Shown here: positions 1 through 41,834 of the stretch, piece by piece
Layout of the letters: every line of letters starts with the position of its first letter
Numbering within the stretch: position 1 is the first letter of the stretch
Assembly: GCF_027257175.1 (NCBI RefSeq)
Contig: NZ_JAPFGD010000008.1
Location: 124,001-188,000 of the forward strand
Direction of reading: 5' to 3'
DNA length: 64,000 bases
DNA from: Castellaniella sp. S9
GTDB taxonomy: Bacteria; Pseudomonadota; Gammaproteobacteria; Burkholderiales; Burkholderiaceae_B
Position numbers and translations under genes: made by a program
Notes under the pieces: model-generated
Told to the model about the DNA's origin: nothing
Database searches by the model: none
Seen by the model: only the letters and a program-made list of their open reading frames with translations

Positions 1-97
1 GGCCCTCCGCCACCAGGCGCCTGCACAGGTGCGCACCCAGAAAGCCCGCGCCGCCGGCCACCAGCACCGGTCCGGACTGAGTCGAATGTCTATTCAT
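1..97 (-). CDS. NAD-dependent epimerase/dehydratase, N-terminal fragment
   Basis: Only the first 32 codons lie in the window; the rest is beyond the left edge. The translation begins MNRHSTQSG and runs into a glycine-rich Rossmann loop, GGAGFLGAHL (about residues 15-24), the NAD(P)-binding signature of extended short-chain dehydrogenases such as sugar-nucleotide epimerases. The start codon lies inside the end of the upstream glycosyltransferase gene (8-base overlap), so it is the last visible member of the minus-strand glycan operon. Its substrate is probably a nucleotide sugar by context, but nothing in this fragment shows which one. Confidence 0.75.
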   Translation of the reverse strand, partial: MNRHSTQSGPVLVAGGAGFLGAHLCRRLVAEG

Positions 98-1115
98 GCC
101 ATGCTCCTTCCTGTCGTACCCCGGTCAGCAGCGCCAGGACGCCGTTCCAATCGTCGACGAAACGCTCGATGGAAAAGCGCCGCAGCGCCGTATTCCTGGC
201 GGCGAGGCCCCACTGCCGGGCCAATGCCGGATCGTCGATGAGCTGGCGCATGCAATCCACCAGCCGATCGCGGCGACTGTCGACATAGCCCTCCACGCCG
301 TTGTCGATCACGTTCGGCAACTCGGTGGCGGCGATCCCGACGATGGGCATGCCCGCCATCATGGCCTCGACCAGGGACAAGCCGAGGCTGGCGTAGCGGA
401 TGGGCGAAAAGAAAAACCGGTACTGGGCCATATACGCCGGCACCTGCATGTTGGATATTTCCCCCAGGCCGCCCATGGCTTCCGACTGCATGCCGATCAG
501 GTCCAGCGGCACTCGCCGCGCGGCCCACTCGTAGAGGTCGGCGCCCACCCTTCTGCCCCGCCGCTGCAGGTGGTTGATGGCGGTGATGCCCCGCGCCAGT
601 TCGCCGGTGTAGAGGACGCCCGGCGGCGCGACGATGCCGTGCTCGATGACGCGCGTGCACACGCCGGGTGCCTGCCACATCAGCGCGTTGTGATGGGTGA
701 CGTGCACCAGGACGCCGTGCTCGTGCCGGAAAAAGTGCATGGTGTCGGTGGGGTGCGGCTCCGGCGGATTGTGTTCGATATAGGCGCAGGGCAGCGCCTG
801 CTGCTCCGGTGTCAGCAAGAGCAGCCGGTCCCGTTCGAAAGCGGCGCGCGATTGGTAGATCACGCAATCCAGCGCCTCGTGCCGCAGCTCGCACGCCGGT
901 ACCTGGCGCACATTGAGGCCCCAGGGTATTTTCGTGCCCAACGCGCCGTAGCCGGACGGATCGTCCGGCAGCCGCGGCACCACGAAGTCATGCGGCAGGC
1001 GGGTCAGGGAATAGAGATAATTGCCGTGCACGTGCCAGGTGAGGATCCGCAGGCGGCCGCTCGCGCCGGCTGCGCGCGGCGCGGGATCCGCCGGGGTGCA
1101 TGCCGGATCATGCAT
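90..1115 (-). CDS. Glycosyltransferase family 4 (GT-B fold)
   Basis: The product is a 341-residue glycosyltransferase. The C-terminal half carries the family 4 donor-binding pattern: RYASLGLSLVEAMMAGMP followed by GIAATELPNVIDNGVEGY, where the Glu of the E-x7-E-like motif holds the sugar nucleotide. The N-terminal half begins RILTWHVHGNYLYSLTRLPHDF, as in group 1 transferases. The open frame extends upstream, but the ATG at 1115 (MHDPACTP) overlaps the stop of the preceding GT9 gene by 8 bases and is the better start. No signal peptide or membrane span is seen, so it acts in the cytoplasm. It probably adds one sugar during assembly of a surface glycan; donor and acceptor are unknown. Confidence 0.82.
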   Translation of the reverse strand: MHDPACTPADPAPRAAGASGRLRILTWHVHGNYLYSLTRLPHDFVVPRLPDDPSGYGALGTKIPWGLNVRQVPACELRHEALDCVIYQSRAAFERDRLLLLTPEQQALPCAYIEHNPPEPHPTDTMHFFRHEHGVLVHVTHHNALMWQAPGVCTRVIEHGIVAPPGVLYTGELARGITAINHLQRRGRRVGADLYEWAARRVPLDLIGMQSEAMGGLGEISNMQVPAYMAQYRFFFSPIRYASLGLSLVEAMMAGMPIVGIAATELPNVIDNGVEGYVDSRRDRLVDCMRQLIDDPALARQWGLAARNTALRRFSIERFVDDWNGVLALLTGVRQEGAWHE

Positions 1116-2169
1116 GGCCGCCCTCTTTCGCCAGTTGGATCTGCGCCGCGCGCAGGACTTGCTCGGCATCGACGCGCGTGGCGCAGGGATGCCCGAGGAC
1201 CGGGCAACGGTCATGGGCGCAAGGTCGGCACGGCATGTCGGCATGGAGGACGGTATGCCGGGCGGTGTCCAGCGGTGCCCAGCGGCCCACGTCGCTGCCC
1301 GAGGCAATGACCACGCTGCGGGCGCGCACCGCGGCGGCGACGTGCGAGATGCCGGTGTCGTTGCAGATCAGCAGGGGTGCGCGCCCCAGCAGGCTGGCCA
1401 GGGTGCCGAGCTCGGTCATGCCGCCGAGATCCAGCGCCTGACGGCCGATCCCCGCGACCACCTCCGCGGTCAGCGGGCGTTCCGCGCGGCTGCCGGTGAC
1501 GGCGATCCGCCAGCCCTGGCCGGCCAGGCGCCGGCCGACCGCCGCGAAACGCGCCGGCGGCCAGCGGCGCGAGGCCAGGCGCGCGCCCGGATGCATGAAG
1601 ACCGTGCGGGCGGGATCGAAGCCGGTGCGCACCGCCAGGTCGTCGGCCTGCGCGTGATCCTCGGCATCGACGGGAAACTCCAGGCGTGCGTCCTCCCCTG
1701 CCGGCAAGCCCAGGTACTCCAGTAGCGCCAGATAACGCATGACTTCGGGCTGCCGGTCGGGCCAGGCCATCAGCAGCGGTGTGCGGCGCAGGCGGTCGGG
1801 CACGAAGCCCGCCCATTGCAAGGCCCCCAGGGCCTGGACGATGGCGTTGGATCGAGTGCCGCTGCCGTGCATCTGCAGGGCCAGGTCGAAGTGGCGGGCG
1901 CGCATCTCCCGGTAGAAATCGGGCAGCGCCGACAGGCGCGCCGCCTGTTCGGGAAAGCCGGGATCCCCAGGAAAATCCACCAGTTCATCGACGTAGCGGC
2001 CGAATCGCCCGATGCAGGGGCGTATGCTCTCGAGTCCGATCAAGGTGATCCGCGCACGCGGAGCCGCGCGCCGCAACGCCCTCAAGGCCGGCACGGCGCA
2101 CAGGAAATCGCCCAGGTTCAACGCGCGGAAAACCGCGATCCGCCGCGGCGCGGGCGACCATACGGCCAT
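1108..2169 (-). CDS. Glycosyltransferase family 9, heptosyltransferase-like
   Basis: This 353-residue protein resembles ADP-heptose:LPS heptosyltransferases. The N-terminus has the GT9 signature FRALNLGDFLCAVPALRAL, and the C-terminal domain has CNDTGISHVAAAV, the donor-binding loop. Close to the end is a cysteine cluster of spacing C-x2-C-x4-C-x6-C (CRPCAHDRC...HPC). The second GT9 of this operon has the same spacing, and some heptosyltransferases have a similar tail. The start at 2169 (MAVWSPAPRRIAVF) lies 5 bases past the stop of the GT2 gene; a longer open frame upstream overlaps that gene and is not used. It likely transfers a heptose or heptose-like sugar in the cytoplasm. Confidence 0.84.
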   Translation of the reverse strand: MAVWSPAPRRIAVFRALNLGDFLCAVPALRALRRAAPRARITLIGLESIRPCIGRFGRYVDELVDFPGDPGFPEQAARLSALPDFYREMRARHFDLALQMHGSGTRSNAIVQALGALQWAGFVPDRLRRTPLLMAWPDRQPEVMRYLALLEYLGLPAGEDARLEFPVDAEDHAQADDLAVRTGFDPARTVFMHPGARLASRRWPPARFAAVGRRLAGQGWRIAVTGSRAERPLTAEVVAGIGRQALDLGGMTELGTLASLLGRAPLLICNDTGISHVAAAVRARSVVIASGSDVGRWAPLDTARHTVLHADMPCRPCAHDRCPVLGHPCATRVDAEQVLRAAQIQLAKEGGHA

Positions 2170-2174
2170 CGGGC

Positions 2175-3299
2175 TCACGGCATCCCCCAGCCAAAACGCA
2201 GGATGCCCGCCATGCGCCAGAAAATGGACAGCGGCGGGATGAGCAAGGACGTCAGCAGCAGATCCGCCACGTTCCTGGAGTCCAGGGACGTGCCCTTGAG
2301 CCGGTGTGCGAAGAATCCCAGGCTCAGGGCCAGCCACAGCGCGGCGCACACACCGGCGATCATCGCCTCCCCCGACAACAGGGCCAGCACCGCGGCCGCC
2401 AGGCAGGCGGTGACCAGCAGGTAGAACCAGGGCGGGTGCTTGCGGATGCGGCGCCGGTACAGGCCGCGGTGCTTGCGATACAGCAGCACATCGAACATGA
2501 CTTTGCGCTGCATGGCCAGGCCGGCGGCAAACGGCGCGGGCCTCAAGGGATGATGGACGACGGCGCGAGGCGCCCAAGCGATCCGGCAGCCTTGCTCGAT
2601 GAGGGAAAAATGCAGATCGGAATCCTCGCGCCAGGCCAATCTGAAGCGCTCGTCGAAGCCGCCCACCGCCTCGAGCGCGTCGGTGCGCACGAAGCAATTG
2701 GCGGTTGCGAATTCCGCCAGCCGCAGGCCGCCGGCGTCTCTTTGCTGGTCGCTGGGCTTGTCGGGGATGGGCATGACGATGCGTCCCGTAGCGGCCGCGA
2801 CGCCGGAGGTCATGGATTCCAGGCCGGACTCGAGCCAGCCGGGATCGGGGATGGTGTCATCGTCGGTGAAGGCGATGACGGGGGCGAGCGCGGCGCGCCA
2901 GCCGGCGTTGCGCGCGCCGGCCGGCCCCTGTGTGGCCGTGACGGGCAGGTAGCGCAGGCCGGGCAATCCGCCCTGCTCCACCCCCGCGCGGAAACCGTCG
3001 ACGACCGTGCGGGTCGGCGCGCCGGGCTCATCGTCGCACACGATGACTTCATAGCGCTCGGGGGGCAGCGACTGGGCGGCCAGGGCCGCCAGGCAACGCC
3101 TCAACATCTCGGGGCGCCGGTAGGTCGGCACCACCACCGATACGCTGGGCGGACCGAGCCCGGGCCTGGCGCCCGCGGCGGGCGGCGTCCTGTCCGGCCT
3201 GCCGGCCAATGGCAGGTCGATGAGCGGCGTTCCCGCGGACGGGGCGGTCCCCTCCTCGGAGCGATGGCGAAAGAATAGCGTAGTGTCGGTAGCGAGCAT
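2175..3299 (-). CDS. Glycosyltransferase family 2, membrane-anchored
   Basis: The 374-residue product has a GT-A domain from about residue 50: SVVVPTYRRPEMLRRCLAAL, then VIVCDDE, the segment GPAGARNAGW and the metal-binding FTDDDTIPDPGW. After the catalytic domain come two hydrophobic stretches near residues 295-335 (YLLVTACLAAAVLALLSG and following) and another near residues 345-365, so the protein is probably tethered to the inner membrane. The start at 3299 has a good ribosome-binding site (GAAAGG, about 8 bases upstream). It sits between two GT9 genes in the same operon. The exact linkage made is unknown. Confidence 0.85.
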   Translation of the reverse strand: MLATDTTLFFRHRSEEGTAPSAGTPLIDLPLAGRPDRTPPAAGARPGLGPPSVSVVVPTYRRPEMLRRCLAALAAQSLPPERYEVIVCDDEPGAPTRTVVDGFRAGVEQGGLPGLRYLPVTATQGPAGARNAGWRAALAPVIAFTDDDTIPDPGWLESGLESMTSGVAAATGRIVMPIPDKPSDQQRDAGGLRLAEFATANCFVRTDALEAVGGFDERFRLAWREDSDLHFSLIEQGCRIAWAPRAVVHHPLRPAPFAAGLAMQRKVMFDVLLYRKHRGLYRRRIRKHPPWFYLLVTACLAAAVLALLSGEAMIAGVCAALWLALSLGFFAHRLKGTSLDSRNVADLLLTSLLIPPLSIFWRMAGILRFGWGMP

Positions 3300-3317
3300 G
3301 ATGTTTTCCTTTCGGAC

Positions 3318-4424
3318 TCAGGCCACCAGCGGCCTGCGGACATCGGCGACACGGCCGTCGAGCAATTCCAGCGCCGCCGCCACGACGGCTTGTGGCGCCA
3401 CGCCATCGAGGCAGGCGTGGGTGCCCTCCTTGCAGACGCTGCTATAGCAGTTCCGGCAGGACACATCCCGATAGAGCAGCCGGTGCGGCACCTGCCACGG
3501 AGTGTGCTGCGGATTGGTGAGGGCGTAGAGGTCGACGATCGGGGTCTGCACCGCGGCTGCGATGTGGACGGGCCCGGTGTTATTGGAAATCAACAGGCCG
3601 GCGTCCTCGATGAGGCAGGCCAGTTCGCCCAGGTGCAGCTTGCCCGCCAGATCGATGACATGATTGCGGGCGGTGCATTGTGCAAGGATGCCGCGCGTCA
3701 GCGGCGCCTCGTCCGCGCTGCCCGTGAGCAGGATCGGCAGTCCGCGGGACTTCAGCAGCGAAATGGCTTGGGCGTAGCGGGCGGGGCTGTACCGCCGCGA
3801 CATGGCGCTGGCGCCACAGTGCGCGACGATCCAGCCATCCGTGCGGGTCAGTCCGTGCGCCCGCAGGACCGCATGCAGGCTGCGGCGATCCTCGGCGCGT
3901 GTCGCAAAGGACAGGCGGGTGTCGGCGGGGCCGGCCGCGCCCACTGTGGCCACGAGGTCCAGCTGGCGCCGCACCTCGTGGCGCGCGGGACTCGCGGGTT
4001 CCGGGTCCCGCACCCAGTGACTCAAAAGCCGATAGGGGTTCTCGCGCGCATGGGCCAGAGCCAGCCGGATGCCGGCCAGGCGGCACATGAGGGCCGCGGG
4101 CAGCGCGCTTTGGCTATAGACGGTAAATATGACGGCCGCATCGAACGCCTGTGCGCGCAGGATCTCGATCATCCGGCGGTCCGCCGCGGGATCGTCCGCG
4201 GCATTCTTGACCCAGGGCGCGTCGTATTCGAGCGTGTGGTCCACCTCGGGCAGGAACGGCGCCAGCGCCGCTCCCGATCCCGATGCCAGCAATGTGATGC
4301 GCCTGTCCGGCACGGCGCCACGCAGCGCCCGGATGGCGGGCGTGGTCATGAGGACGTCGCCCATATTATCGAGGCGCACGCAGAGGATGCGGCGGGCCCG
4401 GGCCCAGTCTGTCGCCATGCTCAT
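3318..4424 (-). CDS. Glycosyltransferase family 9, heptosyltransferase-like (second copy)
   Basis: The 368-residue protein has the GT9 N-terminal pattern LCVRLDNMGDVLMTTPAIRAL, a middle segment WIVAHCGASAMSRRYSPARYA, and the C-terminal donor loop SNNTGPVHIAAAV. Its end carries the cysteine cluster CRNCYSSVC...HAC with the same spacing as the other GT9 of the operon, so the two are paralogues that have diverged elsewhere. The ATG at 4424 overlaps the stop of the phosphatase gene in an ATGA junction, which fixes the start and implies coupled translation. It likely transfers an ADP-activated heptose or a related sugar in the cytoplasm. Confidence 0.85.
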   Translation of the reverse strand: MSMATDWARARRILCVRLDNMGDVLMTTPAIRALRGAVPDRRITLLASGSGAALAPFLPEVDHTLEYDAPWVKNAADDPAADRRMIEILRAQAFDAAVIFTVYSQSALPAALMCRLAGIRLALAHARENPYRLLSHWVRDPEPASPARHEVRRQLDLVATVGAAGPADTRLSFATRAEDRRSLHAVLRAHGLTRTDGWIVAHCGASAMSRRYSPARYAQAISLLKSRGLPILLTGSADEAPLTRGILAQCTARNHVIDLAGKLHLGELACLIEDAGLLISNNTGPVHIAAAVQTPIVDLYALTNPQHTPWQVPHRLLYRDVSCRNCYSSVCKEGTHACLDGVAPQAVVAAALELLDGRVADVRRPLVA

Positions 4425-5038
4425 GCGGCGCCTCCGATGTCGGCTGGCGGGCACTGCGCGCCGATCCAGCGGCTGGCGCCGTCAAGGTCCGGCTCGATCC
4501 GTTCGGGCGTGCGCCAGGCACCGCGCAGCCATTCCGTTTCATGGCCGTTGTCCAGCAGGATGGTCCTGCAGCCCGCTCGTCTGCCGGCCTCCACGTCGTC
4601 CAGAATGTCGCCGACGAACCAGGATCTGGCGAGGTCGATGCAGTGCCGCTTCGCGGCGGCGCGCAAGAGTCCGGGCGCGGGCTTGCGGCAATCGCAGGCG
4701 CATGCATATCGCGCGAGAACGGCTTGGGGATGATGGGGGCAGTAATAAAAGCCGGCCAAAACGGCATGCACGCTCAGGAACATGGACTCGAGCCGCCGGC
4801 GCACCAGCAGCAGGTCCCGTGGGCTGGCCTTGCCCAGGCCGATGCCGGGCTGGTTGCTGATGATGATCAAGGGCAAACCCAGCCGACCCAGCCGACCCAG
4901 CCGGCACAGGCCCGCGCGCGCGCCGGGCGCGAAACGCATGCGGTCCGGATCCACGTTGTACGGCTCATCCTCCAGTACCGTGCCGTCCTTGTCCAGGAAA
5001 ACGGCCGGCTGTGGCCGGGTGTCCATCAAGGTCTTCAT
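4421..5038 (-). CDS. HAD-IIIA phosphatase, GmhB-like (heptose-bisphosphate phosphatase family)
   Basis: The 205-residue product has the HAD motifs in order: FLDKDGTVLEDEPYNVDP (nucleophile Asp and acid Asp), ISNQPGIGLGK (motif II), CRKPAPG (motif III Lys) and FVGDILDDVEAGRRAGC (motif IV). Between motifs II and III is CPHHP...CACDC, the zinc-binding Cys/His insert of D-glycero-D-manno-heptose 1,7-bisphosphate 7-phosphatase. GmhB removes the 7-phosphate in the cytoplasm during ADP-heptose synthesis. Two GT9 genes beside it support a heptose-related role, but the other ADP-heptose genes are not in the window. It overlaps its neighbours through ATGA junctions on both sides. A histidinol-phosphatase-like specificity cannot be excluded. 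Confidence 0.83.
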   Translation of the reverse strand: MKTLMDTRPQPAVFLDKDGTVLEDEPYNVDPDRMRFAPGARAGLCRLGRLGRLGLPLIIISNQPGIGLGKASPRDLLLVRRRLESMFLSVHAVLAGFYYCPHHPQAVLARYACACDCRKPAPGLLRAAAKRHCIDLARSWFVGDILDDVEAGRRAGCRTILLDNGHETEWLRGAWRTPERIEPDLDGASRWIGAQCPPADIGGAA

Positions 5039-6360
5039 CCCTGGCCTTTGTGTGCCTTGCCGTCCACCTGCGGCGGTCGCTGCACGGGATGGCGGTATGC
5101 GTAAGCGCGCGGATGAACCTGCGAGGGGGCGGTCCGGTGCGCCAAGGCCTCGAAGACCTCGGCGAGTTCCTCCCCTACCCTGCGCCACGTGAAGAGCTGG
5201 TTGGCGCGTCGCGCGCCGGCCAGCCCCATGCGGCGCGCAAGCGCCGGGTCCTGCGCCAGGATGGCCAGTTTCCCGGCCAGACGGTCCGGGTCTCGCGCTG
5301 GCACTAGAAATCCGGTGTCGCCGTCCGCGACGCTATAGCGGATTCCGCCGGTATCCGAGCCGACGACCGGCGTGGCGCAAGCCATGGCCTCCACGGGGGT
5401 GATGCCGAAGGGTTCGTACCAGGGCGTGGTCACGAACGCGTCCGCGGCGCAGTAGTAGCGCCTGAGCTGGTTGCGCCCCCGCCGGCCGGTGAATTCCACA
5501 TGCTCCAGCACGCCTTCCCGCCGGGCGACGTCCCGCAGCCGCCCGAGTTCAGGGGTGTCCTGCTCGCTGGGCGTACTGCTGTTGCCGCCCACCACGCAGA
5601 GGCGGGCGTCGATGCCGTGTCTGGCGCGCAGGCGCGCCAGCGCCTCGATCACATTGTCTATGCCTTTGCGCGGGACGATGCGGCCCAGCTGCAGCAGGTA
5701 GAACGCGTCGGGCCGCCAGCCGAGGCGGCGACGCGCCTCCCGCCTGTCCATGGGCGCCATTTCTTCGCTGTCGAAGCCGCAGGGCACCATGCTGATACGC
5801 GCGGGGTCGGCGCCGTACAGCTCGATGAGATCCGTCTTGTCCTGCGGGCACTCCGCAATGATGCGGTCGGCTTCGCCCACGATGCGGCCTTCGATCGCGA
5901 AACGGCTGTCTGGAAACCGGTCCGCCTGCGCCTGATGCCGGCGCCGCACCCGTCCCAGCGCATGGAAGGTGACCGCCAGCGGGATGCCGAAGCGGCGCGC
6001 GACCGGCATGGCGGCCATGGCGGACATGAAGAAATTGGCGTGGATGATGTCGTAAGGCTCCTCGGCGTCGAAATGGGCTTGCATGTAGCGGCTGAAATCG
6101 GCCATCAGCGGCAGCAGCTCCTCTTTCGGGAGATAGCGTGCCGGCCCGGCAGGCACGTGCACGATGCGCACCCCGTCGTCCCAGTCGATGGTGGGGGGCA
6201 GCGAGGGACTGTCCAGCCGGGTAAAGACATCGACGTGGTAGCCGCGGGCGCCCAATTGGCGGGCGACGTGGGCCACATAGATGTTCTGTCCGCCGCTGTC
6301 CACGCTGCCGGCAAGCGCCAGGGGCGACGCGTGTTCGCTCACGATTGCGATTCTTTGCAT
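5035..6360 (-). CDS. Glycosyltransferase family 4, sucrose-phosphate-synthase-like
   Basis: The 441-residue product starts RIAIVSEHASPLA and has GGQNIYVAHVARQLGARGY, the N-terminal pattern of sucrose-phosphate-synthase-like GT4 enzymes. It continues with ADRIIAECPQDK, then MVPCGFD, LQLGRIVPRKGIDNVIEAL, and the donor motif YEPFGITPVEAMACATPVVGSDTGGI. The start at 6360 (MQRIAIV) has GGAGAACAGGC just upstream, which rules out a longer reading. It is the first gene of the minus-strand glycan operon, so the operon promoter should lie in 6361-6622. It is cytoplasmic with no membrane segment. The family uses NDP-glucose or GDP-mannose donors; which applies here is unknown. Confidence 0.86.
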   Translation of the reverse strand: MQRIAIVSEHASPLALAGSVDSGGQNIYVAHVARQLGARGYHVDVFTRLDSPSLPPTIDWDDGVRIVHVPAGPARYLPKEELLPLMADFSRYMQAHFDAEEPYDIIHANFFMSAMAAMPVARRFGIPLAVTFHALGRVRRRHQAQADRFPDSRFAIEGRIVGEADRIIAECPQDKTDLIELYGADPARISMVPCGFDSEEMAPMDRREARRRLGWRPDAFYLLQLGRIVPRKGIDNVIEALARLRARHGIDARLCVVGGNSSTPSEQDTPELGRLRDVARREGVLEHVEFTGRRGRNQLRRYYCAADAFVTTPWYEPFGITPVEAMACATPVVGSDTGGIRYSVADGDTGFLVPARDPDRLAGKLAILAQDPALARRMGLAGARRANQLFTWRRVGEELAEVFEALAHRTAPSQVHPRAYAYRHPVQRPPQVDGKAHKGQG

Positions 6361-6510
6361 GCCTGTTCTCCGTTCTCTTTTCTGGGCCGGAACCGCTGCT
6401 GGAATCCCTGCAGGCAAGTCTGAGCCACGGTGATGTCGGGGGGTGACTCCAGGCCTACAGCAACTCCTGTGCCGGGCTCTGGGGGGCGCTTGCGGCGCGC
6501 GCCCGGCGGC

Positions 6511-6526
6511 GGGCATGCCGATTGCT
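6511..6526 (+). promoter_or_regulatory. Candidate sigma-54 (-24/-12) promoter
   Basis: The sequence gGGCAT-N5-TTGCT matches the -24/-12 consensus TGGCAC-N5-TTGCW. The GG doublet is at 6512-6513 and the GC at 6524-6525, with exactly 10 bases between them. The first base of the consensus (T) is G here. A transcript from it would start near 6537 and have about 85 bases of leader before the chimeric gene at 6623. A 16-base match in GC-rich DNA can arise by chance, so this is a candidate only. Confidence 0.35.
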
Positions 6527-6622
6527 TCCCGCTGGTGCGGCGGCGCGGCAACGATGCCGCGGTGGCCGGCGCCCACGTGGACCGACAGCAGCCGCCGCGT
6601 CTTGATCCAGCAGGAGAACCTG

Positions 6623-7642
6623 ATGAACATTGCGATAATCGGAACGGGATATGTGGGATTGGTGACGGCTGCGTGCTTCGCCCAGACGGGACAACACGTG
6701 CTCTGCTTCGACAAGGACCTGCGGAAAATAACGATGCTGCGCGGCGGCACCGTGCCGTTTCACGAACCGGGCCTGGAGGCGCTCGTCGTCGAGGGCCAGG
6801 CCAGCGGCCACCTGGCGTTTCGCTCGTCCCTGCGGGCGGGCGAGGGACTGGAGCGCGCCGACGTGATATTCCTGGCGATCGGCACGCCCACGGGTCCGGA
6901 CGGCCGCGCCGATCTCGATGATCTGCTGGATTGCGCGGGCCGCCTGGCGCGGATCCTCACCCGGGATGCCCTGGTCGTGGTCAAGTCCACCGCGCCCGTG
7001 GGGACGTGCCAGCGCATTCAGGATGTCCTGGATGCGCAGTCGCCGCATACGCCGCGCCCCAGGTTCGTCGTGGCATCAAATCCGGAATTCCTCGCCGAGG
7101 CCCGCGCGGTGGCGGATTTCCAGCACCCCGAACGCATCGTGATCGGCTGCGAGGACGAAGACGCATGCCGCGTGCTGCAGGAGGCCCGCTGGCTGGTGCG
7201 CAACGTTGAGCAGCGCTACGCCACCATCCAGCGCGTGGCCGAGGCCATTGTGCTGCGCCAGCGACGTTTCTTCGATTACGGCGACGTGGCCTTGCGCCCG
7301 CTGATGCTGCGCGAGGTGGCCGAGGACCTGGACATTCACGAATCGACGGTCTCGCGCGCCACCGCCAACAAATACATGATCACGCCACGCGGATTGTTTG
7401 AATTCCGCCACTTCTTCTCACGCGAGCTGGGCACCGAGGCCGGCGGCTCCTGCTCGGCCAACGCAGTGCGCGCCCTCATACGCGAACTGATCGACGCCGA
7501 GAACCCCGCCCAACCGCTGTCGGACGTGGATCTGCGACAGCAACTGACGCGTCACGGCATCGTCATGGCGCGGCGGACGGTCACCAAGTACCGCGGCCAA
7601 CTGAAGATCCCGGCCGTGGAGTTGCGCAGGACGCACGGTTGA
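6623..7642 (+). CDS. Chimeric protein: UDP-glucose dehydrogenase N-terminus fused to sigma-54 DNA-binding domain
   Basis: The 339-residue reading frame joins two unrelated proteins. Residues 1 to about 185 are the NAD-binding half of UDP-glucose 6-dehydrogenase: IAIIGTGYVGLVTAACFA (Rossmann loop), HEPGLE, VIFLAIGTPTGPDG, VVVKSTAPVGT and SNPEFLAEARAVADF. The central domain with the catalytic Cys and the UDP-binding domain are absent. Residues from about 186 are the C-terminus of RpoN: QEARWLVRNVEQR, the helix-turn-helix LREVAEDLDIHESTVSRATANKY, FEFRHFFSRELGTE and the RpoN box ARRTVTKYR at 316-324. The sigma-54 activator-binding region and most of the core-binding domain are missing. The join is in frame at about 7172-7189 with no stop. 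The ATG has AGGAG six bases upstream. Dehydrogenase activity is unlikely; promoter binding is possible. A deletion product or an assembly error is the alternative. Confidence 0.8.
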   Translation: MNIAIIGTGYVGLVTAACFAQTGQHVLCFDKDLRKITMLRGGTVPFHEPGLEALVVEGQASGHLAFRSSLRAGEGLERADVIFLAIGTPTGPDGRADLDDLLDCAGRLARILTRDALVVVKSTAPVGTCQRIQDVLDAQSPHTPRPRFVVASNPEFLAEARAVADFQHPERIVIGCEDEDACRVLQEARWLVRNVEQRYATIQRVAEAIVLRQRRFFDYGDVALRPLMLREVAEDLDIHESTVSRATANKYMITPRGLFEFRHFFSRELGTEAGGSCSANAVRALIRELIDAENPAQPLSDVDLRQQLTRHGIVMARRTVTKYRGQLKIPAVELRRTHG

Positions 7643-7668
7643 GGCCGGGCCGGACCGGACGGCGCTAG

Positions 7669-7747: not shown

Positions 7748-8869
7748 ATGGACACCACACAGCCCACAACACGGCGGACGCGGCCGGGCCACCGGCGCGG
7801 TGCGTGCGCCACACGCGAGGATCCCCGCTGGGCGCAGATCCTCGCACGCAGCGCCGAGGCGGACGGCCGGTTCTTTTACTCCGTCGATACGACGGGCGTG
7901 TTCTGCCGGCCGTCCTGCGGCGCCCGCACCCCGCGTCCCGAACACGTCCGCTTTCACGAAAGCGCGGCCGCCGCGCTGGCTGCCGGCTTTAGACCGTGCC
8001 GGCGCTGCCGTCCCGACCTGCCGCCCCTGGCCGAGCGCCATGCGGCACTGGTGGCCGAATCGTGCCGCCGGATCGAAGCCTCTGAAACCCCGCCCACGCT
8101 GCAGGCGCTGGCCCAGGCTTGCGGATTGAGTCCGCATCACTTGCACAGGATCTTCAAGACCGTCACGGGCCTGACCCCCAAGGCCTATGCCGCGAGCTGC
8201 CGCGCACGCCGGCTGCGCACCGCCCTCGCGCAAGACGGCGGCGCCAACTCGGTGACCGAAGCGATCTACGGGGCCGGCTACCAATCCGGCAGCCGGTTCT
8301 ATGAGGAATCGGACCGGGTGCTGGGCATGGCGCCACGCGCCTACCGGGCCGGCGGCGCGGGCATGACGATCCGCTTCGCCATCGGCGAGTGCAGCCTGGG
8401 GGCCATTCTGGTGGCGGCCACCGAGCGCGGCCTGTGCGCCATCCTGATGGGCGACGAGCCCGAACCCCTGCTGCGCGAGCTGCAGCATATGTTTCCCCAG
8501 GCGGAACTGCTGGGCGGGGACGCTGCCTTCGAGCGGCTGGTGGCCCGGGTGGTGGGGTTCATCGAGGCGCCCCAGCTGGGCCTGGATTTGCCGCTGGACA
8601 TCCGCGGGACGGCCTTCCAGCAACGGGTGTGGGCCGCCTTGAGGGACATACCGCCTGGATCGACGCTCAGTTATGCGGAACTGGCCCGCAGGATCGGCAT
8701 GCCCGCCGCCACGCGTGCCGTCGCCCGGGCCTGCGCCGGCAACCGCCTGGCCGTGGCAATCCCCTGCCACCGGGTGGTGCGCCAGGATGGGGGATTGGCG
8801 GGCTATCGGTGGGGCGTGGACCGCAAGCGCAGCCTGCTGGCGCGTGAACGCGAGGAGGATGCGGCGTGA
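7748..8869 (+). CDS. ada: Ada: DNA methylphosphotriester / O6-methylguanine methyltransferase and AraC-type activator
   Basis: The 373-residue protein has the full three-part Ada layout. The N-terminal zinc domain has Cys53, Cys57, Cys84 and Cys87 (VFCRPSC and CRRC), the first being the expected acceptor for methylphosphotriesters. An AraC-type helix-turn-helix follows at about residues 100-205 (LAQACGLSPHHLHRIFK, then SGSRFYEESDRVLGMAPRAYR). The C-terminal methyltransferase has the active site IPCHRVV with Cys340 and an FQQRVW helix. It repairs O6-alkylguanine irreversibly and, once methylated, activates transcription. It overlaps alkA in a GTGA junction, so the two are co-transcribed. An Ada-box-like site lies upstream at 7669-7681. 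Confidence 0.95.
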   Translation: MDTTQPTTRRTRPGHRRGACATREDPRWAQILARSAEADGRFFYSVDTTGVFCRPSCGARTPRPEHVRFHESAAAALAAGFRPCRRCRPDLPPLAERHAALVAESCRRIEASETPPTLQALAQACGLSPHHLHRIFKTVTGLTPKAYAASCRARRLRTALAQDGGANSVTEAIYGAGYQSGSRFYEESDRVLGMAPRAYRAGGAGMTIRFAIGECSLGAILVAATERGLCAILMGDEPEPLLRELQHMFPQAELLGGDAAFERLVARVVGFIEAPQLGLDLPLDIRGTAFQQRVWAALRDIPPGSTLSYAELARRIGMPAATRAVARACAGNRLAVAIPCHRVVRQDGGLAGYRWGVDRKRSLLAREREEDAA

Positions 8870-9783
8870 GTGGCCGGCGATTGTCGCGCACCTGGCGCCT
8901 GCCGTCCGGTTTTCGCGCTCAGGAGGTGCTGGCCTTCCATCGCCGGGACCGCGAAGGCCTGGCCGAGCGGGTCGAGGGCGATTGCATCCGCAAGGGCCTG
9001 GTCTGGCATGGCCGGCCGGCCTGCTTGTCGCTGCGTCTGAGGGGCGGGCAGGCGGCCGCCGAACTGGCTGTGGATGGCGACGCCTCGGCGCCCCGCAGTC
9101 AGGGCGAATCCGCGCAGTTCGACGCCATGGTGCGCCGCCTGCTGGGCCTGGACCAGGACATTGAAACCTTCGAAGCCCTGTACCTCGACCATCCGCTGAT
9201 CGGTCCCCTGCTCGCTCCGCGTCGGGGATTGCGCGTACCCATAGCCGCCACCCCGTTCGAGGCGCTGACCTGGGCCATTACCGGCCAGCAGATCAGCGTG
9301 GCGGTGGCCATTTCCCTGCGCCGCAAGCTCGTACGGACCGCGAACATCCGCCATTCGTCGGGCCTGTGGTGCCATCCGGATCCCGTCTCGGCGGCCGCGC
9401 TGGGCGAGGACGCCCTGCGGGCGGCGAGCTTCTCGGCCGCCAAGGCCAGGACGCTGATGGCCTTGTCCGGAGCCATTGCCCAGGGCGCGCTGCCGCTCGA
9501 GGATTGGCTGCGCGAGATGCGGATCCAGGCCATCCGCGACGGCCTGCTAGCCATCAAGGGGATCGGTCCCTGGACGGTGGATTATGCCCTGCTGCGCGGC
9601 TTTGGCTGGCTGGACGGCTCCCTGCACGGCGACGTCGCCGTACGGCGCGGCATCCAGGCACTGCTGGGCTTGACGGAACGGGTCGGCGAGGCCCAGGCGC
9701 GGGAATGGCTGCGGCCTTTCGCCCCTTGGCGAGCCTTGCTTGCGGCCCATCTGTGGGCCGCGCAGTCCGATGCGGGCTATTGA
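8866..9783 (+). CDS. alkA: AlkA: DNA-3-methyladenine glycosylase II
   Basis: The 305-residue product excises alkylated purines from DNA, giving an abasic site. It shows the HhH-GPD layout: TPFEALTWAITGQQISVAVAI, then the hairpin-helix-hairpin LLAIKGIGPWTVDYALLRGFG and the catalytic aspartate in LHGDVAVRRG (Asp256). The first 100 residues form the AlkA-type N-terminal domain. The start is a GTG at 8866 inside the ada stop codon (GTGA), so translation is probably coupled to ada. This ada-alkA operon is the standard adaptive-response arrangement. Confidence 0.93.
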   Translation: MSGRRLSRTWRLPSGFRAQEVLAFHRRDREGLAERVEGDCIRKGLVWHGRPACLSLRLRGGQAAAELAVDGDASAPRSQGESAQFDAMVRRLLGLDQDIETFEALYLDHPLIGPLLAPRRGLRVPIAATPFEALTWAITGQQISVAVAISLRRKLVRTANIRHSSGLWCHPDPVSAAALGEDALRAASFSAAKARTLMALSGAIAQGALPLEDWLREMRIQAIRDGLLAIKGIGPWTVDYALLRGFGWLDGSLHGDVAVRRGIQALLGLTERVGEAQAREWLRPFAPWRALLAAHLWAAQSDAGY

Positions 9784-9789
9784 GACCGG

Positions 9790-10086
9790 CTAAATCTGTT
9801 CGAAGCGGTCGTAGCGGCGCTGTGTCTGGACCTGATCGTGCACGACCTCGTCCACGCGCGCCGCGGGCGGACCCTGCAGCAGCCAGGACAGCATGCGGTC
9901 CAGGGCCTCGTGTTCGCCTTGCAGCAGGGCCTCGACCCGGCCGTCATCCAGATTGCGCACCCATCCCCCCAGTTTCAACTGATGGGCCTGGCGCACGGTC
10001 GCCGCCCGAAAGCCCACGCCCTGGACCTTGCCGAGGACCAGGACGGAGAGCGTCTCGACGCCGGTGTGGGAATGCAGGGATTTCAT
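9790..10086 (-). CDS. acyP: Acylphosphatase
   Basis: The 98-residue protein hydrolyses carboxyl-phosphate bonds such as acetyl phosphate. The signature is complete: VLGKVQGVGFRAATVRQA with the phosphate-binding Arg (about residue 27), and GWVRNLDDGRVEALLQG with the catalytic Asn (about residue 45). The length is usual for the family. The ATG at 10086 (MKSLHSHTG) was chosen; an in-frame ATG three codons upstream is also possible. The gene converges on alkA with only six bases between the two stop codons. Confidence 0.9.
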   Translation of the reverse strand: MKSLHSHTGVETLSVLVLGKVQGVGFRAATVRQAHQLKLGGWVRNLDDGRVEALLQGEHEALDRMLSWLLQGPPAARVDEVVHDQVQTQRRYDRFEQI

Positions 10087-10299
10087 GGGCGACATTCTAT
10101 CCGCTTTGCCTCGGCCGGCGCATCCTTGCCGCCCGCATCGTCCCAAAACCCGCATGGGACAAGGGTTTTTGATGAATCCGGTCATAAGGACATTGCCCAA
10201 CAATCGTTTTCCCCGAACGCCCGGCTGCCTAAAATGACGCGTAGCGATGCACCGTTCCGATCCCCCCATTTTTCCGGGCGCCGCGGCGCCGAGGCCATC

Positions 10300-11568
10300 A
10301 TGAGCACCCACACACCCCCCTCTCGCAAGCACACCGTGGTCATCGTCGGCGCAGGAACCGGCGGGGCCGCTGTCGCCGCGCGCCTGCGCCGCGCACGGCC
10401 CGACATCGATATCGCCGTGGTCGACCCCGCGCCCAACCACGATTACCAGCCGGCCTGGACACTGGTGGGCGGCGGCGCCTATCGCGCACCGGACACCCGC
10501 CGGGCGCTGCGCGACTGCCTGCCCCGGGGGGTACACCATATCAGCCGGGCCGTGACGGCGCTGCGGCCCGACGAGCGGCGGATCGAACTGGCCGACGGTG
10601 CGCTGCTGGCCTATGAATACCTGGTGGTGGCCGCCGGCATCCAGTTGAACTGGCATGCCATCGAGGGCCTGGCCGATGCCCTGGGCCGGGACGGCGTCAC
10701 CAGCAACTATCGCTACGACCTGGCGCCCTATACCTGGGAGCTCGTGCGCACGTTTCGTGGCGGCACGGCCGTATTCACCCAGCCGGCCGGCGCGGTCAAA
10801 TGCCCGGGGGCGCCGCAAAAGGCCCTCTACCTCGCCGCCGACCATTTCCGGCGCCGCGGCGTGCGGGTCGACAGCCTGCAGTTCCGCACGGCCGCCGCGA
10901 CGGTCTTTGGCGTCCCCTTCTATGCCCAGGCGCTGGACAAAGTCATGGCCTCGTACGGGGCCCAGCCGCGTTTCGGCCAGACCCTGGTACAGGTCCGCGG
11001 CGCCGACAAGATCGCGGTCTTCGAATCCGTGGTCGACGGCCGGCCCGTGCGCGAGGAGGTCGCCTACGACCTGCTGCACGTGGTGCCGCCGCAAAGCGCA
11101 CCCGATTTCATCCGCCATAGCCCCCTGGCCGATGCCAACGGATGGCTGGAAGTCGACAAGCATACGCTGCGCCATGCGCGCTATCCGGACGTGTTCGGCC
11201 TGGGCGACTGCACGTCCACGCCCAACAGCAAGACCGCCGCCGCCATCAAGGGCCAGGTCCCCGTCCTGGTCGGCAATCTGCTGCGGGCGCTGCGCGGCGC
11301 CAGCAACACCGAGAGCTACGACGGCTATGCCGCCTGCCCGCTGACGACCTCCGTGGGCAAGGTCCTGCTGGCCGAGTTCACCTACGGCGGCGCCGTCACG
11401 CCCAGCTTCCCGGCCGATCCCCGGGTTCCCCGCCGCTTCTACTGGTGGCTGAAGCGCTCGTTCATGCCATGGTTCTACTGGAACGTCCTGCTCAAGGGCA
11501 GGTCTTTGCCGGCCACGCACCGCGGCCGTGATTTTCCCGTCGGCGTGCCCTCCTCCATCCAGCCGTAG
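10300..11568 (+). CDS. Sulfide:quinone oxidoreductase-like FAD protein
   Basis: The 422-residue flavoprotein starts VVIVGAGTGGAAVAARLRRARP (FAD-binding loop) and has the features of type II sulfide:quinone reductases. A redox Cys lies in AVKCPGAPQKALYLA, a second FAD motif in FGLGDCTSTPNSKTAAAIKGQ, and a further Cys in YDGYAACPLTTSVGK. The family oxidises sulfide to sulfane sulfur and passes electrons to quinone at the membrane. The C-terminal FYWWLKRSFMPWFYWN is amphipathic or hydrophobic and fits membrane attachment. The open frame runs upstream across the acylphosphatase region, but ATG 10300 is where FAD-binding homology begins. No persulfide dioxygenase or rhodanese neighbour is seen, so a detoxifying role is inferred. 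Confidence 0.85.
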   Translation: MSTHTPPSRKHTVVIVGAGTGGAAVAARLRRARPDIDIAVVDPAPNHDYQPAWTLVGGGAYRAPDTRRALRDCLPRGVHHISRAVTALRPDERRIELADGALLAYEYLVVAAGIQLNWHAIEGLADALGRDGVTSNYRYDLAPYTWELVRTFRGGTAVFTQPAGAVKCPGAPQKALYLAADHFRRRGVRVDSLQFRTAAATVFGVPFYAQALDKVMASYGAQPRFGQTLVQVRGADKIAVFESVVDGRPVREEVAYDLLHVVPPQSAPDFIRHSPLADANGWLEVDKHTLRHARYPDVFGLGDCTSTPNSKTAAAIKGQVPVLVGNLLRALRGASNTESYDGYAACPLTTSVGKVLLAEFTYGGAVTPSFPADPRVPRRFYWWLKRSFMPWFYWNVLLKGRSLPATHRGRDFPVGVPSSIQP

Positions 11569-41319: not shown

Positions 41320-41834
41320 ACGCCCGACCCCGCCTTGGTGGGATCGTAGCGGTCGCGGTCATGGCCGCGCAGCACGCGCCACGACAGCCAGACATAGCGG
41401 ACGATGATGGCGACCACGAACACAATGTAGATCGAATAGAGCCAGTCCATGCGGATATTCAGGTACGAGCTCTTTTCGACCTTCATGAAGGTCACGTAGT
41501 CCACCACGGCGGGAAAGGATATGCCGTACAACAGGACGATCGATACGGCGGTGATCAGGAACATCGCGCCGCGGACCCGCGGCCCCGCGGCCGACAGAAG
41601 CAGGTCGAAGCGCATTTCTTCTTCTTCGCGCACGACGAAGGCCGCCCCCCAGAGCACGATCCAGATCCACAGGACGGAGCTGAGTTCGCTGGACCAGCCG
41701 CTGGGCCAGCTGAGGACATAGCGGAAGAATACCTGGACGAGAAAGGCGAAGAACATCGTCGCGAGCATGAGTGCAAGGACGTTCTCGGCGCGGCGGTAGA
41801 GCCAAGCGCCCATGGCGCGCAGACTGGGGGACAT
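41316..41834 (-). CDS. dctQ: TRAP transporter small permease
   Basis: The 172-residue protein has four transmembrane segments (about residues 17-38, 48-66, 88-110 and 128-148). The loop FVVREEEEMRFDLLLSAAGP and WSSELSSVLWIWIVLWGAAF are typical of DctQ. It packs with DctM in the inner membrane. It is preceded by dctP (91-base gap) and coupled to dctM. Confidence 0.9.
   Translation of the reverse strand: MSPSLRAMGAWLYRRAENVLALMLATMFFAFLVQVFFRYVLSWPSGWSSELSSVLWIWIVLWGAAFVVREEEEMRFDLLLSAAGPRVRGAMFLITAVSIVLLYGISFPAVVDYVTFMKVEKSSYLNIRMDWLYSIYIVFVVAIIVRYVWLSWRVLRGHDRDRYDPTKAGSGV

Follow-up and report, generated by a model that had tools for sequence, protein, structure and literature searches.

How did half of a UDP-glucose dehydrogenase come to share one reading frame with half of a sigma-54 factor, and does the resulting protein have a role? 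The gene in question, ugd'-'rpoN2, lies in a 64,000-nt stretch of Castellaniella sp. S9 DNA, here called the window, and a first-pass annotation made from the letters alone described it as one open frame joining the NAD-binding half of Ugd to the DNA-binding half of sigma-54. Frame and domain analyses bore this out. The ATG at 6623 opens an uninterrupted 339-codon frame that runs to 7642; the upstream limit of the same open frame is a GTG at 6443, but protein-level homology with Ugd of the congener G001 is close only from the ATG onward, not from the GTG. Pfam assigned residues 1–185 to UDPG_MGDP_dh_N (PF03721, E 1.3e-50, profile positions 1–184 of 187) and residues 184–336 to Sigma54_DBD (PF04552, E 5.4e-59, profile positions 7–159 of 160), with no third domain at E ≤ 0.001. 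The RpoN2 half (residues 185–339) shows 94% identity to the copy in Bordetella hinzii and 89% to that in G001, and the RpoN box ARRTVTKYR is present as claimed (Table 1).

The protein nevertheless falls short of both parental families. It has the NAD-binding domain of UDP-glucose/GDP-mannose dehydrogenases but gave no Pfam match to the central (PF00984) and UDP-binding (PF03720) domains, both of which are present in G001 Ugd; it has the sigma-54 DNA-binding domain with its helix-turn-helix and RpoN box but gave no Pfam match to region I and the core-binding domain. NCBIfam recovered the same two halves, with every sigma-54 and dehydrogenase model under its cut-off (the sigma-54 model TIGR02395 scores 212 against a cut-off of 277). 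The domain content of the predicted protein rules out function as a dehydrogenase or as a sigma factor, in agreement with the annotation, which had excluded a working form of either. A further suggestion, that the Rossmann half senses NAD, was set aside, an intact-looking motif being its sole evidence.

Table 1. Features of the chimeric locus, in window coordinates.
Feature	Position	Strand	Basis or remark
Rest of glycosyltransferase cluster: HAD hydrolase, two GT9 (heptosyltransferase-type), one GT2, one GT1	90..5053	-	collinear with G001
First gene of divergent glycosyltransferase cluster, GT4/GT1 family	5035..6360	-	open frame
Sigma-54 element CGGCACAGGAGTTGCT	6459..6474	-	faces divergent glycosyltransferase gene; 13/16 bases as in G001
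Sigma-54 (-24/-12) element GGGCATGCCGATTGCT	6511..6526	+	112 bp upstream of chimera ATG; 14/16 bases as in G001
AGGAG, probable ribosome-binding site of chimera	6612..6616	+	sequence
Chimeric gene ugd'-'rpoN2	6623..7642	+	339 codons, in frame; Pfam and open frame
Ugd NAD-binding (Rossmann) half	6623..7177	+	72% identity to residues 1–187 of intact G001 Ugd
Join	7169..7178	+	overlap of blastn segments; G001 parents share GCTGC in register
RpoN2 DNA-binding half	7175..7642	+	helix-turn-helix and RpoN-box sequences present
HESTVSRAT	7337..7363	+	sequence; taken by us to be the helix-turn-helix region
RpoN box ARRTVTKYR	7568..7594	+	motif named in the available part of PMC6755734

The source genome holds neither an intact ugd nor a second intact rpoN, the two genes whose presence the annotation had named as bearing on its reading. 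It contains one further rpoN, the primary gene, which matches the chimera at 39% identity in its C-terminal part, as well as one distant NDP-sugar dehydrogenase (33%). Queried with G001 RpoN2, the genome returned only residues 323–486, in the chimera, and the primary rpoN (40%); queried with G001 Ugd, it returned only residues 1–193, in the chimera, and a 28% relative. The missing halves of both proteins were thus not found elsewhere in the genome with the G001 protein queries. The reciprocal fusion rpoN2'-'ugd was not found in it either, and an origin by inversion or translocation was rejected because that product is absent.

Comparison with congeners pointed to a deletion. Both parents are intact in G001, where ugd (C5 75660–77045, all three Pfam domains) and rpoN2 (C5 41090–42553, a full-length 487-aa frame) lie on the minus strand of one contig, 35 kb apart. 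By blastn, the sequence from window position -849 to 7178 aligns collinearly with G001 contig 5 84565–76475 at 73–81% identity, and window 7169–7666 resumes at 41563–41064 on the same strand at 83%, a step of 34.9 kb in G001 from ugd to rpoN2. The two segments overlap at about 7169–7178, matching the join that the annotation had placed near 7172–7189, and the only sequence common to the G001 parents there in register is the 5-bp GCTGC. G001 DNA beyond rpoN2 has no match to the window right of the chimera; the right flank, from the acylphosphatase gene to window 23707, is instead collinear with the rpoN2 locus of the congener G003, on the other side of which lie relatives of the activator gene of the G001 interval and phospholipase-D-type genes. 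One flank of the chimera is anchored by G001 and the other by G003. Of the interval itself, the part searched for (G001 45.0–75.6 kb) has no counterpart in the source genome: it gave scattered short matches only, 14 in one search and 2 in another, the best of the 14 being a 453-bp piece of the activator gene at 68%.

A relative with intact same-strand parents, a missing interval and short homology at the join are together what a deletion scar would leave, and the annotation's proposal that a short homology mediated the loss of the DNA between ugd and a second rpoN agrees with the G001 collinearity, the G003 flank and the GCTGC. Leaving any role aside, we consider a deletion origin very probable on these comparisons, with the ancestral ugd...rpoN2 arrangement resting on one genome, since only G001 among the nine congeners has both parents so ordered. 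A single deletion would have removed the DNA between ugd codon ~184 and rpoN2 codon ~334, both genes reading in the same direction, and joined the ends in frame at the 5-bp shared sequence. That two nearly end-to-end Pfam domains meet at the join speaks for such a scar, although a join at a domain boundary in both parents would equally suit a selected fusion.

Because the assembly is a 33-contig draft (99.99% complete, 3.2% estimated contamination), the possibility that misassembly or a chimeric read had put two separate genes together had to be weighed. Such an artefact appears highly improbable. Both flanks are syntenic with congeners, the G001 parents stand on one contig and one strand, and the 5 bp that they share in register is too little for a de Bruijn mis-join. 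Exact matches of the join region (7120–7259) to the loci of the primary rpoN and the NDP-sugar dehydrogenase reach 13 bp at most, and the other halves occur nowhere else in an assembly of this completeness.

Ada-type methyltransferase/regulator and AlkA-type glycosylase genes (window 7748–9783) lie between the chimera and the acylphosphatase gene; in G003 the gap between rpoN2 and the acylphosphatase gene is only ~1 kb, and the G001 counterpart of window 8036–8844, within the Ada/AlkA region, sits elsewhere, on C2. A pyridine-nucleotide-disulphide oxidoreductase-family gene (window 10078–11568) stands between the acylphosphatase gene and the next gene, two genes that are adjacent in G003. On the left, six genes of the glycosyltransferase cluster (window 90–6360) are still open despite the loss of the close ugd.

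Next, we considered how widely the fusion and its parents occur. An rpoN2-type gene was found in two of nine congeners, G001 (86%) and G003 (66%), a close ugd in G001 only, and the chimera in none of the nine. A search of 268 genomes of the family, which includes Bordetella, with the source genome among them, scored at most 8 candidates per genome and took the best E-value seen for each; the fusion was seen in no genome but its own, whose match scored 752.6 bits, and the next among the matches listed scored 308.3 bits and covered the DNA-binding half only. In a tree, the RpoN2 half groups with B. hinzii and not with G001 (support 77), and that half may therefore have a separate history. A plasmid origin was set aside: all 746 plasmid records matched at below 60% identity, and the best 20 of the 746 mostly carry Ugd-type annotations.

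In two genomes of other genera, G026 and G237, rpoN2 immediately precedes ugd on one strand, with ~140 and ~70 bp between the genes, respectively, and at these two loci (L027 1–2262 and L077 5653–8516) the pair adjoins the same glycosyltransferase cluster. The order in G026 and G237 counts against a deletion scar, as rpoN2 followed by ugd could not give the fusion by simple deletion. From such a neighbouring pair, the chimera could instead have come by tandem duplication at a short junction followed by loss of the outer copies, the duplication mechanism being known for nusG'-'sigH and rplK'-'sigH of S. aureus, as described in the available part of PMC3486894. We rate this route as very unlikely: it requires further losses, and the intergenic DNA to the left of the chimera, with both sigma-54 elements and the divergent glycosyltransferase gene, follows the G001 pattern, in which ugd, not rpoN2, adjoins that gene.

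What the proposed deletion would have taken can be read from G001. We read its interval as 18 translated stretches, of which 2 have no family and 1 is ugd itself, closing the interval. Pfam identified a hybrid histidine kinase with GAF and PAS domains, a response regulator with a sigma-54 activation domain, two alpha-amylase-family proteins, a starch/glycogen-synthase-type protein and a GT2, together with BON, PRC-barrel, DUF421, DUF3182, PLD, ferritin-like, PGI-type and exo/endonuclease/phosphatase proteins, which we take to be a stress/desiccation and storage-sugar island. The deleted DNA would thus correspond in G001 to 34.9 kb of a stress/polysaccharide island that encodes both a sensor kinase and an NtrC-type activator of its own. 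The island, flanked by ugd and rpoN2 (L023–L025, C5 41.0–77.4 kb), is rich in sigma-54 elements: with GG and GC fixed, 11 sites fall within 41.0–77.4 kb and 0 in the other 38.6 kb of G001 that was read, and the reversed pattern, used as a control in G001, gave no sites. Some of the 11 may not be promoters, since at least one is located within rpoN2 itself.

Two such elements lie at the chimera itself. Scanning the window with TGGCAYRN4TTGCW, we found both of its sites at ≤1 mismatch in the 262-bp spacer that separates the chimera from the divergent glycosyltransferase gene, each pointing outward at its neighbour gene. Two sites is the chance level (mean 2.04, reached by 61 of 100 shuffles), and at ≤2 mismatches there were fewer than expected (7 against 12.9); the argument for the elements consequently rests on their place, facing and conservation. 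That both sites fall in one intergenic region and both are alike in G001 is, on this sequence comparison, not expected by chance. The plus-strand element does not align with its counterpart in an alignment of the whole G001 intergenic region, because the element stands 112 bp from the ATG in the window against 71 bp in G001.

Similar elements recur at rpoN2 loci elsewhere. In 44 of 51 loci an element precedes the projected rpoN2 start by less than ~200 bp, at a distance of about 43–103 bp, those of the family including L004–L018 and L049–L077; the seven rpoN2-type loci that lack one are L019–L022, outside the family, and L041, L042 and L044. All 455,704 strand-bases of the 51 loci contain 83 elements, the 44 upstream ones included. 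Six of eight genomes have an element upstream of ugd (the exceptions are G107 and G228), and as a control none of the three primary-rpoN loci that could be scored, out of seven, has one. From this distribution we infer that RpoN2 is probably autoregulated and drives ugd and the island, which in G001 apparently forms a self-contained RpoN2 regulon with sigma factor, kinase, activator, targets and autoregulatory element. The available part of a sigma-54 regulon survey reports that in several classes rpoN genes are enriched among sigma-54-transcribed genes (PMC12316311), so rpoN autoregulation as such is not new; a self-contained RpoN2 regulon across Bordetella-related genomes was not described in the literature searched. 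The chimera exposes what seems to be such a regulon in many of these genomes.

The deletion would have left the chimera with the start, ribosome-binding site and sigma-54-type promoter element of ugd. A sigma-54 DNA-binding domain therefore sits behind a likely sigma-54 promoter. Loss of the island's own activator would make expression from it weak; the best relative of that activator in the source genome is 41% identical. This relative (C32 74885–76039) lies ~2.4 kb from a perfect sigma-54 element at C32:72420–72435 and is a possible cross-activator.

Whether the product is under selection was approached through substitution rates in triplets. On the chimera branch, the DNA-binding half has dN of 0.017–0.030 against dS of 0.31–0.44 (four triplets), not different from its sisters, and its replacements, if all neutral, would fill only ~4–7% of the branch. 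For the Ugd half, only dN was used because its dS is saturated, erratic and even negative; dN was 0.068–0.092 against 0.095–0.123 for intact G001 Ugd, and no higher in 4 of 4 triplets. As these rates showed relaxed constraint in neither half, either the fusion arose recently or selection maintains both of its parts.

A rival reading makes the chimera a working repressor. The annotation had suggested a decoy or repressor, and the sigma-54-like element in front of the chimera, which it did not mention, adds something to that idea. The chimera might occupy -24/-12 elements without core polymerase, as a natural roadblock, with the elements at 6459–6526 as its first targets, so that its own gene and the glycosyltransferase cluster would be shut off. 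Such a role would fit a DNA-binding half that is complete and constrained and two elements that are kept in G001 and face outward to both genes, and it has a precedent in P. aeruginosa, where a 60-aa C-terminal RpoN peptide represses sigma-54 promoters (PMC5626770, as far as the available part goes). The constraint may, however, predate the fusion. Expression may be low, since the promoter depends on an activator and that of the island is missing, and the fusion is known from one genome only. We regard this role as unlikely, and hold in similar doubt the fuller scenario in which loss of the RpoN2 island produced a self-regulating, Rossmann-fused repressor under a regulon-type promoter that silences the orphaned glycosyltransferase cluster and possibly competes with the primary sigma-54 elsewhere. 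If the chimera does work in this way, nature would offer a parallel to the engineered RpoN*, and a deletion would have made a repressor out of a sigma factor in a simple manner.

We favour the reading that one deletion made the chimera, which is now a recent, weakly expressed scar with no selected role, and give it a probability of roughly 0.7. The sequences establish that there are two domains, that both sides are collinear with congeners, that the other halves are absent and that the elements are conserved; that a single event was responsible, and that its product is recent and has no selected role, we infer, a young scar being favoured with each species represented by one genome and the activator missing. 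Even as a scar, the gene would be a clean example of how the loss of an island can create in-frame chimeras.

Sigma-factor chimeras at short repeats and rpoN remnants are already known, as the available parts of PMC3486894, PMC2784325 and PMC6755734 show. With Ugd, the chimera has the start and the NAD-binding domain in common, whereas the central and UDP-binding domains are missing from it. The inactive or truncated rpoN of pathogenic Neisseria resembles it as an rpoN remnant in one lineage; there, however, the N-terminal part stays and the DNA-binding parts are lost, the reverse of the chimera, which, unlike the Neisseria case, is the remnant of a second rpoN with the primary rpoN still in place (PMC2784325 and PMC6755734, in the parts available). 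The nusG'-'sigH and rplK'-'sigH genes of S. aureus are likewise in-frame sigma-factor fusions that have taken over the start signals of a partner and, according to the part of PMC3486894 available, join at a 7–8-bp repeat; they differ in having arisen by tandem duplication, with intact copies kept and SigH active, whereas the chimera would have arisen by deletion, with its parents gone and no sigma factor formed. In the available part of PMC5626770, a peptide of 60 residues from the C-terminus of sigma-54 is described as binding the -24 element, and its engineered version lowers transcription from sigma-54 promoters. This RpoN* roadblock is, like the chimera, a sigma-54 DNA-binding end without region I or the core-binding domain, but it is a designed 60-aa peptide from Aquifex, whereas the chimera is a natural gene that carries ~155 such residues behind a Rossmann half and whose repression is putative.
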